From assembly GCF_002149035.1 (NCBI RefSeq), contig NZ_NGFP01000038.1, positions 1-44,803 on the forward strand: a stretch of 44,803 bases of DNA, read 5' to 3'. A program made the translations under genes and the position numbers. The first letter of the stretch is position 1; each line of letters begins with the position of its first letter. The notes below the pieces were generated by a model. That model worked only from the letters and a program-made list of their open reading frames with translations. It ran no database searches and was not told the origin of the DNA. Positions 21,493-44,475 of this stretch are shown in pieces. This stretch comes from Streptosporangium minutum (GTDB lineage: Bacteria > Actinomycetota > Actinomycetes > Streptosporangiales > Streptosporangiaceae).

Positions 21493-21683
21493 CAGATGAC
21501 ATCGATCCCTTGCTTCTCCGGCCCGAGAAGGCCGCGGAGCTTCTCAGCGTCGGCCGGACCACGGTCTACGCGCTGATGCGATCGGGCGCTCTCCGCTCGG
21601 TCCGTGTCGGCACCCTTCGCAGAATTCCCCCGACCGCGCTCGCCGAGTACGTCGCACACCTGGAAGAGGAGCAAGCAGCATGA
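21489..21683 (+). CDS. xis: Excisionase (AICE 2)
   Basis: A 64-residue HTH_17-type excisionase: LLRPEKAAELLSVGRTTVYALMRSGALRSVRVG is the winged-helix core, and RRIPPTALAEYVAHL is the usual end. ATGA overlaps on both sides join it to rep and int. It would bend the attachment arms during excision of AICE 2. Confidence 0.92.
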   Translation: MTDDIDPLLLRPEKAAELLSVGRTTVYALMRSGALRSVRVGTLRRIPPTALAEYVAHLEEEQAA

Positions 21684-22891
21684 GCACCAAGAAGCGCGGC
21701 CACAACGAAGACTCGATCTACAAGGACGGCGATCGGTGGCGCGGGGCCATCTCCATCGGATACGGGCCGAACGGAGAGCGTGTCCGCAAGAAGGTCTCCG
21801 GCAAGACCCGGCCCGAGGTCGTCGAGAAAATCCGGAAGATCCGCGAGGGCCTCGCCAAGGGTCTTCCGGTCCCCGACGACAAGATCACCGTAGGTGCGTT
21901 CCTCGACCGCTGGCTGTCCACGCTTCCCGGCCACATCGCGGACTCGACCTTGGACGACTACGAGGACACCGTACGGCTCCACCTCAAGCCGGGACTCGGG
22001 CGGCACAAGCTCACCGCGCTGACCGTCGCCCACGTCGATGCCCTCTGGCAGGCCAAGCGGGAGAAGTACAAGCCCAACAGCGTCCGGATCATGCGGGCCG
22101 TGCTCCGCAAGGCTCTCGGGCAGGCTGAGCGTGAGGGCCTGGTGGCGCGGAACGTCGCGGCGCTGTCCATGCCTCCCCGGCTCAACACCGACGAGGGCCG
22201 GACACTCACGGTCGACCAGTCGCACAAGCTCCTGGACTCGGTCGCAGAGCATCGGATGGGCGTGCTCGTCCTGCTATCGCTCGTCTTCGGGCTCCGCCGC
22301 GGTGAGGCGCTCGGGCTGATGTGGAGCGGCTTCGACCCGGAAGCCCGGACCCTGCGCGTGACGCACGCGGTGAAGCGAGTCAAGAACCGCGGCACCGACA
22401 CCGAACGGAAGACCAAGCTCGTGATCGCCGAACTCAAGACCAGGAAGTCACGCCGCACGCTCTGCCTGACGCCCCAACTGGTCGACGCGCTGAAACGGCA
22501 CAAGAGCGCGCACAACAAGGAACGTCTTCACGCCGGACAGGACTGGACCGAGCACGGGCTGATCTTCCCCACATCTTTCGGCAACCCGTCCGACCCGGAC
22601 ACCTTCTCTCACCTGTTCTCAAAGCTGACGCAGAAGGCCGGCCTCGGCCACTGGCACCCGCACGAACTGCGCCACTCCGGGGCCTCGCTGATGCTCGCCC
22701 AGGGCACGCCGCTGCACGTGGTCTCCGACGTCCTCGGGCACGCGAGCATCGCGATCACCAAGGATGTCTACGGGCATCTGATGGAGGGCGACAAGCGCGC
22801 GGCGACGGAGGCAATTTCGGGGGCCCTGCTGGGCAGACTCGCACCTTTGGCTCCCAGGTTGGCTCCCACCGACACCGAAGAGATCGGTTGA
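21680..22891 (+). CDS. int: Tyrosine integrase (AICE 2)
   Basis: A 403-residue tyrosine recombinase. The N-terminal arm-binding domain begins KRGHNEDSIYKDGDRWRG. The catalytic domain has Arg in GLRRGEALGL, HxxR in HPHELRHSGAS, His in VLGHASIAI and the nucleophile Tyr in KDVYGH. Its end (APLAPRLAPTD) is encoded by the arm-type repeats at 22847-22868, so the gene end and the recombination site overlap. It lies 62 nt from the right core site in tRNA-Arg(ACG), which identifies its target. Confidence 0.94.
   Translation: MSTKKRGHNEDSIYKDGDRWRGAISIGYGPNGERVRKKVSGKTRPEVVEKIRKIREGLAKGLPVPDDKITVGAFLDRWLSTLPGHIADSTLDDYEDTVRLHLKPGLGRHKLTALTVAHVDALWQAKREKYKPNSVRIMRAVLRKALGQAEREGLVARNVAALSMPPRLNTDEGRTLTVDQSHKLLDSVAEHRMGVLVLLSLVFGLRRGEALGLMWSGFDPEARTLRVTHAVKRVKNRGTDTERKTKLVIAELKTRKSRRTLCLTPQLVDALKRHKSAHNKERLHAGQDWTEHGLIFPTSFGNPSDPDTFSHLFSKLTQKAGLGHWHPHELRHSGASLMLAQGTPLHVVSDVLGHASIAITKDVYGHLMEGDKRAATEAISGALLGRLAPLAPRLAPTDTEEIG
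22847..22868 (+). promoter_or_regulatory. Integrase arm-type direct repeats, right end of AICE 2
   Basis: TTGGCTCCCA occurs at 22847-22856 and again at 22859-22868 (12-bp period), 82 bp before the right core site and inside the last codons of int. The same pair is found at the left end (9727-9748), in the same orientation, so a circular attP would carry one pair on each arm. Confidence 0.65.
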
Positions 22892-22949: not shown

Positions 22950-22994
22950 CTGTGCGGCCGGAGGTACTCGAAACCCCAACCTTCTGATCCGTAG
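22950..22994. repeat. attR: Right attachment site of AICE 2, within tRNA-Arg
   Basis: These 45 bp are identical to 9578-9622. They run from just outside the tRNA 3' end to the 5' edge of the anticodon loop, so insertion rebuilds a complete tRNA gene here. Confidence 0.92.
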
Positions 22995-23025
22995 TCAGAT
23001 GCTCTATCCATTGAGCTACGGCCGC
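22953..23025 (-). tRNA. tRNA-Arg(ACG)
   Basis: A 73-nt tRNA. The acceptor stem GCGGCCG pairs perfectly with CGGCCGC; TAGCTCAATGG forms the D-arm start; the anticodon loop is CTACGGA (anticodon ACG) on a TCTGA/TCAGA stem; the T-arm contains GGTTTCGAGTACC. The discriminator is A and CCA is not encoded. Its 3' half is provided by the right attachment repeat of AICE 2. Confidence 0.95.
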
Positions 23026-42661: not shown

Positions 42662-42970
42662 ATGACGGGCGACAAAATCCCAGAGACCGCTGTGGAAGTT
42701 ATCGCCGAGGACGTTGACCCGCGTGACTACGGCTCGGCCCGCTGGGGCGGGGCCTTCCGCAAGGCGGCTATGAAGGCAGCTGAGCGGTTCCAACTTGGCG
42801 AGCCTCCCGTGCGGAGGCCCATCAGTGGTGTTCCTGGCGTGAGCGAGGAGTCCACGCGTGCCACCGGGCGACGGGTGGCAACTGCGACCCCGGCAGTGCC
42901 CAGGCAGCAGAAAGGCCTCTCCCGAGATTCTGGGAGAGGGCCTCTGACCTGCGGAGGCTCGGGGATTTGA
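42662..42970 (+). CDS. Hypothetical protein running into tRNA-Ser fragment
   Basis: Up to 102 residues starting 3 nt after the LysR stop (starts MTGDKIPETAVEVIAEDVDP, with SARWGGAFRKAAMKAAERFQ). The first ~55 residues look like a real small element-type protein. The last ~25 residues are encoded by the terminator hairpin and the tRNA-Ser fragment, so the original end was probably replaced by recombination at the attachment site. Confidence 0.4.
   Translation: MTGDKIPETAVEVIAEDVDPRDYGSARWGGAFRKAAMKAAERFQLGEPPVRRPISGVPGVSEESTRATGRRVATATPAVPRQQKGLSRDSGRGPLTCGGSGI
42880..42890 (+). promoter_or_regulatory. Possible right-arm integrase site
   Basis: AACTGCGACCC differs by one base from the AACTGCAACCC arm-type repeats at 44029-44051. 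It lies 62 bp before the first tRNA-Ser fragment, the distance expected for the right arm of an element ending there. Confidence 0.35.
42914..42941. terminator. Terminator beside tRNA-Ser fragment 1
   Basis: A stem CCTCTCCC (42916-42923) and GGGAGAGG (42932-42939), extended by GG/CC, with an 8-nt loop. It lies 10 bp before the tRNA-Ser fragment and is nearly identical to the hairpin at 43854-43881. Confidence 0.7.
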
Positions 42971-43007
42971 ACCCCGGACGGGCTGTGGACCCAAACCGCA
43001 TCAGCAG
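42952..43007. repeat. tRNA-Ser(GCT) 3' fragment, copy 1 (attachment site)
   Basis: On the minus strand: CTGCTGA (anticodon loop, GCT), TGCGG stem, long variable arm, T-arm CCGGGGTTCAAATCCCCG, and acceptor AGCCTCC with G discriminator. Identity to a tRNA stops at the 5' edge of the anticodon loop, so it is not a functional tRNA but an integration footprint. The intact tRNA-Ser gene is not in the window. Confidence 0.85.
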
Positions 43008-43266
43008 CTCGGGCCACCACCGTTCAGGACAGTCCCACCTGGACCAACGCCCGCCGGCGATCCTTCTGGAACGAGCTGGTACGGCGGTCAGCTGCAACCC
43101 TGGAACCTCGGTGGTCCGGGGCTGAGACATCCGATGGTCGGGGCGTGTCAAGTCAGTCCGGAGTGATCGCCCCCACGACCCGAGTAACCGCTTCCTCGGC
43201 GGCATCGTTCCCCGCGTGTACGTCATGAGCCCTTGATGTTCCCGTCGGCTCAGGAAGACTGGCGTC
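43008..43266. other. Left arm of the mini-island, non-coding
   Basis: Contains 43022-43100, nearly identical to 43961-44039, ending in CAGCTGCAACCC (arm-type motif with a degenerate second copy). The rest up to 43266 has no gene. AGGAAG at about 43253 is the ribosome-binding site of the SepF-like gene. Confidence 0.55.
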
Positions 43267-43776
43267 GTGATACTTGAGACAGTGCGTCCCCGCGACTACA
43301 ACGACGTCCGACACGTGGGGCACTACTTCCGCGAAGGCATTCCGGTCGTAATGGATCTCACGGCGGTGGCGGACGACGAGGCGAGACAGTTCGTGGACTT
43401 CGCTGCGGGCCTTACCTGCGGGCGACGTGGCGATATGGAGCGCCTGAGCCCCAAGGTCTTCCTGCTGATCCCCTCGGTACTGGCCAAGCCGGGCACCATA
43501 ACGGGCATCGTCAAAAAATTGCGCCCACGCGACTACAGTGAGGCGCTGTATGTGGGGCACTACTTCCGCAAGGGTCTTCCGGTCGTAATGGATCTCACGG
43601 CGGTGGCGGACGACGAGGCGAGACAGTTCGTGGACTTCGCTGCGGGCCTCATCTGCGGGCGACGTGGCGATATGGAGCGCCTGAGCCCCAAGGTCTTCCT
43701 GTTGATCCCCTCAGGGTCGACCAAGCCGAATGCAGCCGCGATCAAGGCTGAAGCGCCCCCATCGGAATCTTCTTGA
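43267..43776 (+). CDS. Tandem SepF-domain protein
   Basis: A 169-residue protein made of two SepF domains. Each has RPRDYN/S...VGHYFR.G(I/L)PVVMDLT followed by DDEARQFVDFAAGL, then GRRGDMERLSPKVFLLIPS. SepF is a membrane-tethering partner of FtsZ that works as a dimer and polymer. The usual N-terminal amphipathic membrane helix is missing, and the domains are nearly identical at the DNA level (43291-43475 and 43528-43712, offset 237 bp). GTG 43267 has AGGAAG 9 nt upstream. Function could be that of a covalent SepF dimer, or it may be a dominant-negative form. Confidence 0.82.
   Translation: MILETVRPRDYNDVRHVGHYFREGIPVVMDLTAVADDEARQFVDFAAGLTCGRRGDMERLSPKVFLLIPSVLAKPGTITGIVKKLRPRDYSEALYVGHYFRKGLPVVMDLTAVADDEARQFVDFAAGLICGRRGDMERLSPKVFLLIPSGSTKPNAAAIKAEAPPSESS
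43291..43712. repeat. Direct repeat of two 185-bp SepF coding units
   Basis: Unit 1 is 43291-43475 and unit 2 is 43528-43712. Long stretches are base-for-base identical (for example the 60 or so bases coding PVVMDLTAVADDEARQFVDF), so the duplication is recent. Confidence 0.9.
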
Positions 43777-43853
43777 TCTTGGGTTGGTGAGGGTGGGCCG
43801 TACGAAGACGATGAGCCCCCGTTGCAACTACGACGCCTTCAGAGATCAAAAAG

Positions 43854-43881
43854 GCCCTCTCCCAAGGTTCTGGGAGAGGGC
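43854..43881. terminator. Terminator beside tRNA-Ser fragment 2
   Basis: A perfect 10-bp stem, GCCCTCTCCC (43854-43863) and GGGAGAGGGC (43872-43881), with an A-run before it. It ends the SepF-like gene, and on the minus strand corresponds to the natural terminator of the tRNA-Ser gene. Confidence 0.8.
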
Positions 43882-43891
43882 TTCTGACCTG

Positions 43892-43946
43892 CGGAGGCTC
43901 GGGGATTTGAACCCCGGATGGCTGTAGACCCAAACCGCATCAGCAG
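43892..43946. repeat. tRNA-Ser(GCT) 3' fragment, copy 2 (attachment site)
   Basis: Same structure as copy 1 but with one base fewer and a few changes in the variable arm. Identity again stops at the anticodon loop. It is the left end of a further element or island extending to the right of the window. Confidence 0.85.
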
Positions 43947-44028
43947 ATCGGGGCATGCCAGTTCAGGACAGTCCCACCTGGACCAACGCCCGTCGGCGAT
44001 CCTTCTGGAATGGCCTGGTACAGCGGTG

Positions 44029-44051
44029 AACTGCAACCCAAACTGCAACCC
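44029..44051 (+). promoter_or_regulatory. Arm-type direct repeats after tRNA-Ser fragment 2
   Basis: AACTGCAACCC occurs at 44029-44039 and 44041-44051, a 12-bp period, 83 bp inside the core. The spacing and position match the AICE 2 arm repeats, although the sequence differs, so a different integrase is expected. Confidence 0.6.
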
Positions 44052-44112
44052 CGTACAGGGTCTTCACCCTGCCTTCGGTCGCTGCGTCCTCCGGCATTCA
44101 CATGTGCGGATG

Positions 44113-44346
44113 TCACTCAGCCGGCTGGCGTTGCCTTTTCCCGATCTTTCGCACCAACCGCACGACGAAGGCCACGAGTCCCAGCAGGAAGAGCAGGCCG
44201 ATGAGTGTCATGGGTCGGCCGCTCAGCACGTTCGCCAGCCACGGCAGGTCGAACAGCGCGGATATTCCGAAGATCACACCGAATCCGACTAACCCTAAGA
44301 CCGCCGTGAAGGCGGACCCTATAGCTGCTTCCCGCAGGCGGCTCAT
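44113..44346 (-). CDS. Small two-helix membrane protein
   Basis: A 77-residue protein with two membrane segments (FTAVLGLVGFGVIFGISALF and MTLIGLLFLLGLVAFVVRLV) and a basic C-terminus (RKIGKRQRQPAE). GAAAGG lies 7 nt before ATG 44346. The leader region upstream (44353-44475) is the dispersed repeat also found at 32584-32700. Function unknown. Confidence 0.68.
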   Translation of the reverse strand: MSRLREAAIGSAFTAVLGLVGFGVIFGISALFDLPWLANVLSGRPMTLIGLLFLLGLVAFVVRLVRKIGKRQRQPAE

Positions 44347-44352
44347 CCGGTA

Positions 44353-44475
44353 CCTTTCGCCGTTTAACCCGATTCCGTCTGGTAACCGGGACGGGCGCAT
44401 GGCAGCCGGTAAGCAGGTTCGTGGTCGGAACCGAACGGGAGTAACGACCCATGCGGGGTGAGCAGGGCGCCAATG
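44353..44475. repeat. Dispersed ~115-bp repeat, copy 2 (leader of small membrane gene)
   Basis: Aligns with 32584-32700 over its whole length with about one indel. On the minus strand it runs up to the ribosome-binding site of the gene at 44113-44346, so it is probably a conserved promoter or 5' leader. Confidence 0.6.

Follow-up and report, generated by a model that had tools for sequence, protein, structure and literature searches.

A double-SepF protein without a membrane helix in Streptosporangium minutum and related actinomycetes

SepF is a membrane anchor of FtsZ; it is essential in Corynebacterium glutamicum and acts as a dimer. Extra copies occur in Streptomyces: the Sfl genes, which we take to be the SepF2/3 genes of this genus, are the subject of a study whose title reportedly states that SflA and SflB prevent ectopic FtsZ and DivIVA localisation. 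In the accessible parts of two papers, the function of the SepF-like proteins of Streptomyces is described as unknown (PMC8748795, PMC7968930). C. glutamicum SepF is among the closest points of comparison for the protein described here. According to the available parts of PMC7118173, each FtsZ pocket is formed by both protomers of the SepF dimer, helices alpha1 and alpha2 take part in dimerisation, and a K125/F131 double mutant has no detectable FtsZ binding. The SepF core devoid of membrane helix and linker binds and bundles FtsZ and loses mid-cell and membrane targeting (same source).

The gene analysed here lies in a stretch of 44,803 nucleotides of S. minutum (the window). This stretch forms the beginning of contig C312 (positions 1-44803), which has 48,415 bases; the genome comprises 548 contigs. 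Its parts and surroundings are listed in Table 1. Genomes are labelled G000 (S. minutum), G006 (S. carneum), G175 (Actinomadura sp. DC4) and G717 (A. roseirufa); other genomes carry a label only.

Table 1. Features of the double-SepF locus (positions in the window)
Feature	Position	Strand	Evidence
Att-like repeat 1: element arm, core TGCTGATGCGGTTTGG, tRNA-Ser(GCT) 3' half, terminator-like hairpin	42908..43100	-	
Promoter-like TTGATG-N16-AAGACT-N6 before the GTG start	43233..43266	+	Conservation across loci
Double-SepF gene, 169 aa, GTG start, stop 43774-43776	43267..43776	+	ORF list, Pfam, dN/dS
N-terminal SepF domain, aa 4-70; carries R59, F65	43276..43476	+	Pfam, PDB alignment
N-domain segment 1, 18 codons, ETVRPRDYNDVRHVGHYF; N-specific across genera	43276..43329	+	Site counts, tree
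Linker; end resembles own leader plus putative former start codon	43477..43512	+	Offset comparison, moderate
C-terminal SepF domain, aa 83-149; carries R138, F144	43513..43713	+	PDB alignment
C-domain segment 1, KKLRPRDYSEALYVGHYF; C-specific, like stand-alone short SepF family	43513..43566	+	Site counts, tree
C-terminal tail; aa 151-169 with pLDDT below 50	43714..43773	+	AlphaFold model
Att-like repeat 2, composition as repeat 1	43847..44039	-	

Two SepF domains in one chain

The first-pass annotation, made from the sequence, had read the gene as two SepF domains in one chain that lacks the usual membrane-binding helix. Both parts of this reading were confirmed. PF04472 (SepF) matched two stretches of the protein with 132.7 bits (cut-off 27; E 5e-39). 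Each domain has 67 residues, and at the nucleotide level two units of 209 nt, 237 nt apart, are 89% identical. A predicted structure unlike SepF had been named in advance as an argument against the assignment. However, both halves have the SepF fold: compared with the FtsZ-bound core of C. glutamicum SepF (PDB 6SCP, 6SAT, 6SCQ, 6SCS), one aligns at 1.0 A (70 residues) and the other at 1.2 A (72 residues). The AlphaFold model of the whole protein has a mean pLDDT of 80.6 and a pTM of 0.68; no helix is modelled after residue 148, where the pLDDT of the tail is below 50. The pocket positions are conserved in both domains. R59/F65 and R138/F144 align with the FtsZ-contact residues K125/F131 of C. 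glutamicum SepF, the position of K125 being occupied by Arg as in the canonical SepF of the host (by eye).

The first SepF core starts at residue 4 with no membrane helix ahead of it, and the open frame of 179 aa is only 10 residues longer than the protein. The double protein thus lacks the N-terminal amphipathic membrane helix that characterises SepF. In the comparison with the host's own SepF, which had been proposed as a check, the canonical protein (C501) and a SepF2-like protein (C284) both showed a helix-like amphipathic N terminus by eye, unlike the double protein. Between S. minutum and S. carneum, dN/dS of the double gene is 0.06 over 155 codons; purifying selection acts on it. The protein derives from SepF and may work in a SepF-like manner, without being a canonical SepF anchor itself.

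The element upstream of the start codon recurs at third-SepF loci, i. e. those of SepF genes besides the canonical and SepF2 types (e. g. L005-L018). In the 34 loci that could be parsed out of 37 tried, TTGA[TC] was found in 22 and AGACT in 29. Both boxes were present in 20 loci, in every one of them 23 nt apart (TTGA[TC]-N18-AGACT, just upstream of the start). Two loci (L011, L070) have the first box alone, nine the second alone, and three neither. Shuffles of the same upstream stretches gave 1.4 and 0.3 loci on average and at most 7 and 3. These loci are related, and shared descent adds to the conservation. The element could act as a leaderless promoter; alternatively, it could be a ribosome site that has a conserved -35 box.

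Distribution and age of the double gene

A third SepF is present in 14 of the 16 genomes of the genus (absent in G005 and G012). Within the family, matches to the double protein with an E value no higher than 1e-22 occur in 60 of 250 genomes; among the matches listed, five span the two halves, and each of the rest spans roughly a single half. The single genes that were parsed, here called type B, are short, start at the core and have no membrane helix. In the order, 8 of 345 genomes matched at E 1e-34. Two of these (G004, G015) have a single domain and six the double form: G000 and G006 in Streptosporangium, G184, G162 and G175 in one other genus, and G717 in a third. A search for other tandem SepF proteins had been called for in the first-pass annotation. 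In a phylum sample of 128 genomes (listing read by eye), the 127 others show no case of two adjacent SepF domains, and with the double protein as query in 396 genomes only the window's own genome was found at E 1e-24. These order and phylum counts cover close relatives; divergent tandems and those worse than 1e-34 could lie outside. A tandem, double or duplicated SepF was not found described in the literature searched, outside of which most subscription papers lie, nor was SepF together with Streptosporangium.

Each domain has two segments that vary in different ways between species. The first 18 codons (segment 1) are specific for the position in the protein. The N domain reads E-T-V-R-P-R in five genes and E-R-L-R-P-R in G162, its first helix carrying V-R in each of the six genes, whereas the C domain has [AV]-L in place of V-R and in all six tandems resembles type B. 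The remaining 49 codons (segment 2) agree for the most part between the two domains of one species and vary from species to species. In the 15 pairs of the six genes, which are not independent of each other, and with a segment border picked after viewing the sequences, segment 1 has 4-9 positional versus 0-1 concerted nucleotide sites per species pair and segment 2 has 0-3 versus 8-21.

Trees were built from 54 nt (segment 1) and 147 nt (segment 2), leaving out the type B genes of G182 and G220, which have a one-residue insertion. In the segment 1 tree all six N starts group together with the two single genes (support 89), and the C starts are placed near type B. In the segment 2 tree the halves group by species in G006 (98), G000 (97, together with the single gene of G004), G717 (96) and G162 (84). 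Those of G184 and G175 are not grouped by species, and the tandem group also includes a stand-alone gene, that of G190 (support 81). Segment 1 being positional and segment 2 species-wise, these results indicate concerted evolution of the halves by gene conversion or unequal crossing-over. The border between the segments could reflect the ends of conversion tracts.

Within segment 2, dS between the N and C halves is 0.15 in G000 and 0.085 in G006. Between these two species the double gene has a dS of 0.43, close to the values of the canonical sepF core (0.39) and SepF2 (0.41); the second copy of G001 could not be parsed and is not part of the type B and dS comparisons. Taken with the site counts and trees, these values mean that the fusion predates the split of S. 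minutum and S. carneum and that the similarity of the halves has been maintained. In the genus g52 the double gene is 81-85% identical at the nucleotide level, compared with 96-97% for the canonical sepF core. The duplication had been called recent in the first-pass annotation. This is ruled out by an architecture common to three genera and by the N- and C-specific domain starts, together with the dS values and the trees. The presence of the double gene in three genera may be due to descent with loss or to transfer.

The single genes of G004 and G015 fit into this picture. G004 has a gene of 90 residues which starts with VILETVRPRDY like an N domain and continues with SEALYVGQYF like a C domain, and the single gene of G015 combines an N-domain-like start with a C-type tail. 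By their composition, both look like tandems that collapsed through recombination between the halves, at different points.

The linker holds a possible trace of the fusion. At its end, the putative former start codon is GTC in S. minutum and GTG in G175, G184 and G162. When the 19 nt before the second domain were compared with the gene's own leader, offsets within the coding sequence that were as good or better, the site itself included, numbered 1/488, 7/503, 6/449, 10/476, 2/488 and 4/464; some other offset beats the linker site in four of the six genes. This fits moderately well with a head-to-tail duplication that included the leader, the second start codon being retained as an internal valine.

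Possible roles of the double protein

Our preferred interpretation, to which we give an even chance, is that the protein is a soluble, pre-paired SepF pseudo-dimer from an anchorless short family, which would bind two FtsZ tails and tune Z-ring assembly. It is based on the retained pocket positions and on the FtsZ binding of the anchorless C. glutamicum core (available parts of PMC7118173). The ancestor would have been a short SepF-like gene without membrane helix, as found in many Streptosporangiaceae. Head-to-tail duplication and in-frame fusion would have taken place before or near the split of the carrier genera. Thereafter repeated gene conversion or unequal crossing-over would have kept the last three quarters of the domains alike, and the first strand and helix would have stayed different. 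The two domains would pair within one chain and present two FtsZ-tail pockets; the intramolecular dimer put forward in the first-pass annotation is plausible in this sense. By cross-linking or sequestering FtsZ tails in the cytoplasm they could then tune the placement of the Z-ring, as perhaps the SepF-like proteins of Streptomyces do.

The part exempt from homogenisation comprises the first strand and the first helix, and therefore an asymmetric interface is possible. The protein could be an obligate, asymmetric, membrane-free SepF dimer in which the different first helices form a heterotypic interface and are for this reason spared from conversion. We regard this more specific proposal as tentative, with the balance leaning against it. 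If it were true, cross-linking of FtsZ tails would be separated from membrane tethering.

That single-domain versions persist in two relatives speaks against a need for two domains. The second domain might be functionally neutral. In this view unequal crossing-over would switch an ordinary gene of the short SepF-like kind back and forth between one copy and two, and the two-domain state would have no special role. The N-like start and C-like end of the one-domain versions in G004 and G015 fit with this, as do the half-length matches listed for other members of the family. However, both domains keep the pocket residues as well as their N- and C-specific starts across three genera, and the low dN/dS between S. 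minutum and S. carneum likewise disagrees with neutrality. We consider this explanation unlikely, though it is the strongest of the alternatives.

Alternatively, the target could be the other SepF proteins of the host instead of FtsZ, the double protein pairing with or capping assemblies of SepF or SepF2. The core that makes SepF-SepF contacts is retained. Moreover, a SepF mutant unable to bind FtsZ still contacts endogenous SepF and causes extra rings, as stated in the accessible parts of PMC7118173. Yet the conservation of the pocket positions suggests that FtsZ binding has been kept, which makes a purely SepF-directed role rather improbable.

As a natural anchorless single-chain SepF, the protein could be used directly to examine how dimeric SepF affects FtsZ beyond tethering it, and whether anchorless paralogues restrain septation in hyphae. 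In addition, its gene provides a small bacterial example of concerted evolution within a single protein, from which one segment is spared.

The tRNA-Ser surroundings and described systems

The gene had been placed in a 940-bp tRNA-Ser island and interpreted as a division factor carried by a mobile unit. The island stands as far as its flanks are concerned. The two att-like repeats are 940 bp apart, and both contain the 16-bp core and the 3' half only of tRNA-Ser(GCT); ARAGORN called no tRNA in them. The intact tRNA-Ser(GCT) is at C525:33849-33939, near the contig end. With at most one mismatch the core occurs at nine places in the genome, a count that covers the intact tRNA and both sites in the window (reversed control: 0). 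Matches to the 3' part only, away from the intact tRNA, were counted from the listing in 11 of the 16 genus genomes. In G007, five such matches share a strand and lie within 52 kb of each other; in G006 and G009 the identity is no more than 77-78%. By analogy, tRNA-Ser(GCT) would be an accretion hotspot in Streptosporangium that resembles the accretion of actinomycete elements. The accreted integrative elements (AICE and remnants) described in the available parts of PMC9513070 are similar in having serial direct repeats and tRNA 3' halves, at the S. minutum locus those of tRNA-Ser(GCT). In contrast to them, the S. minutum segment has 0.94 kb, a single gene and no integrase; among the ORFs of 43100-43850 only the SepF gene passed a composition-based gene picker.

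The mobile character of the island is much less apparent. In neither S. carneum nor G004 does the SepF gene adjoin the intact tRNA-Ser, even if a stray core lies about 3 kb from the gene in G004. The gene is therefore not tied to the island but sits in plastic regions. No near relative was found in the plasmid, phage and viral collections, which argues against phage or plasmid transfer. The plasmid matches comprised seven records, each with less than 60% identity; in four the matched place is annotated as SepF. Matches below 60% were also obtained for seven phage records, none of them annotated, and the two highest, both from faecal samples, reached 46-48%. None was confirmed among viral contigs by a pattern search that detects close relatives only.

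A conserved gene neighbourhood was rejected. tblastn of the called genes showed scattered sharing only: three or four genes, named by eye as murB, MaoC-type and rpmG, between G015 and G175, two downstream genes between G006 and G004, and one gene about 5.5 kb off between G162 and G184. The tblastx matches between nearly all regions were without order, i. e. noise. Rfam searches of the flanks gave no hit above a family's own threshold.

It seems very improbable that the gene is cargo of a mobile tRNA-Ser element that hampers host septation or mating to the element's benefit. Its position between two tRNA-Ser(GCT) 3'-half repeats at an accretion hotspot would suit such cargo, and so would a tyrosine-recombinase gene 3.2 kb past repeat 2 (contig 47258-48049, beyond the window). 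However, the best Pfam stretch of this gene covers only positions 87-169 of a 172-position profile, the 0.94-kb segment itself has no integrase, and the situation in G006 and G004 and the lack of near plasmid, phage or viral relatives also weigh against cargo. The proposed interference with host division or mating was not supported. An assembly duplication, which a genome in 548 contigs with near-identical halves might suggest and about which a worry had been raised earlier, is practically out of the question, as the architecture recurs in separately assembled records (S. carneum, Actinomadura sp. DC4, A. roseirufa) and 11% of the 209 bases are not the same in the two halves.

Further observations concern the same surroundings. 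On the S. minutum contigs C512, C525, C536 and C312 the tRNA-Ser(GCT) core occurs with a common element arm at several places. Window positions 43927-44451, about 530 nt by repeat 2, recur at 88% identity in C512 and contain a minus-strand ORF resembling a small membrane protein. A complete tyrosine-recombinase gene (PF00589, PF14659; window 21680-22891, plus strand) ends 60 nt from tRNA-Arg(ACG) (22952-23025, minus strand), so that the window probably contains a second integrated element. The type B genes G010:C13:17929-18213 and G013:C1:9758690-9758941 are about 12.5 and 19 kb from intact tRNA-Ser(GCT), nearer than expected for a genome of about 9 Mb.

With C. glutamicum SepF (6SCP, 6SAT, 6SCQ, 6SCS) the double protein shares the fold and the FtsZ-contact positions, with K replaced by R. 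It differs from it in having two cores per chain, no N-terminal membrane helix or linker and no modelled C-terminal helix. The SepF paralogues of Streptomyces are likewise extra SepF copies in hyphal actinobacteria, but the third paralogues compared here are single-domain proteins with a long N-terminal extension and no tandem. Three loci from genomes of the same class, taken for Streptomyces (L139, L141, L142), have a third paralogue with a frame of 139-145 residues and no evident membrane helix by eye; thus anchorless SepF-like proteins occur beyond the Streptosporangiaceae. L140, the sole one of the four fetched loci (three genomes) in the tree, falls outside the third-paralogue group. The short stand-alone type B genes of the Streptosporangiaceae, which have a single domain and no fusion, belong to the same family as the double gene and share its start position and its upstream element.
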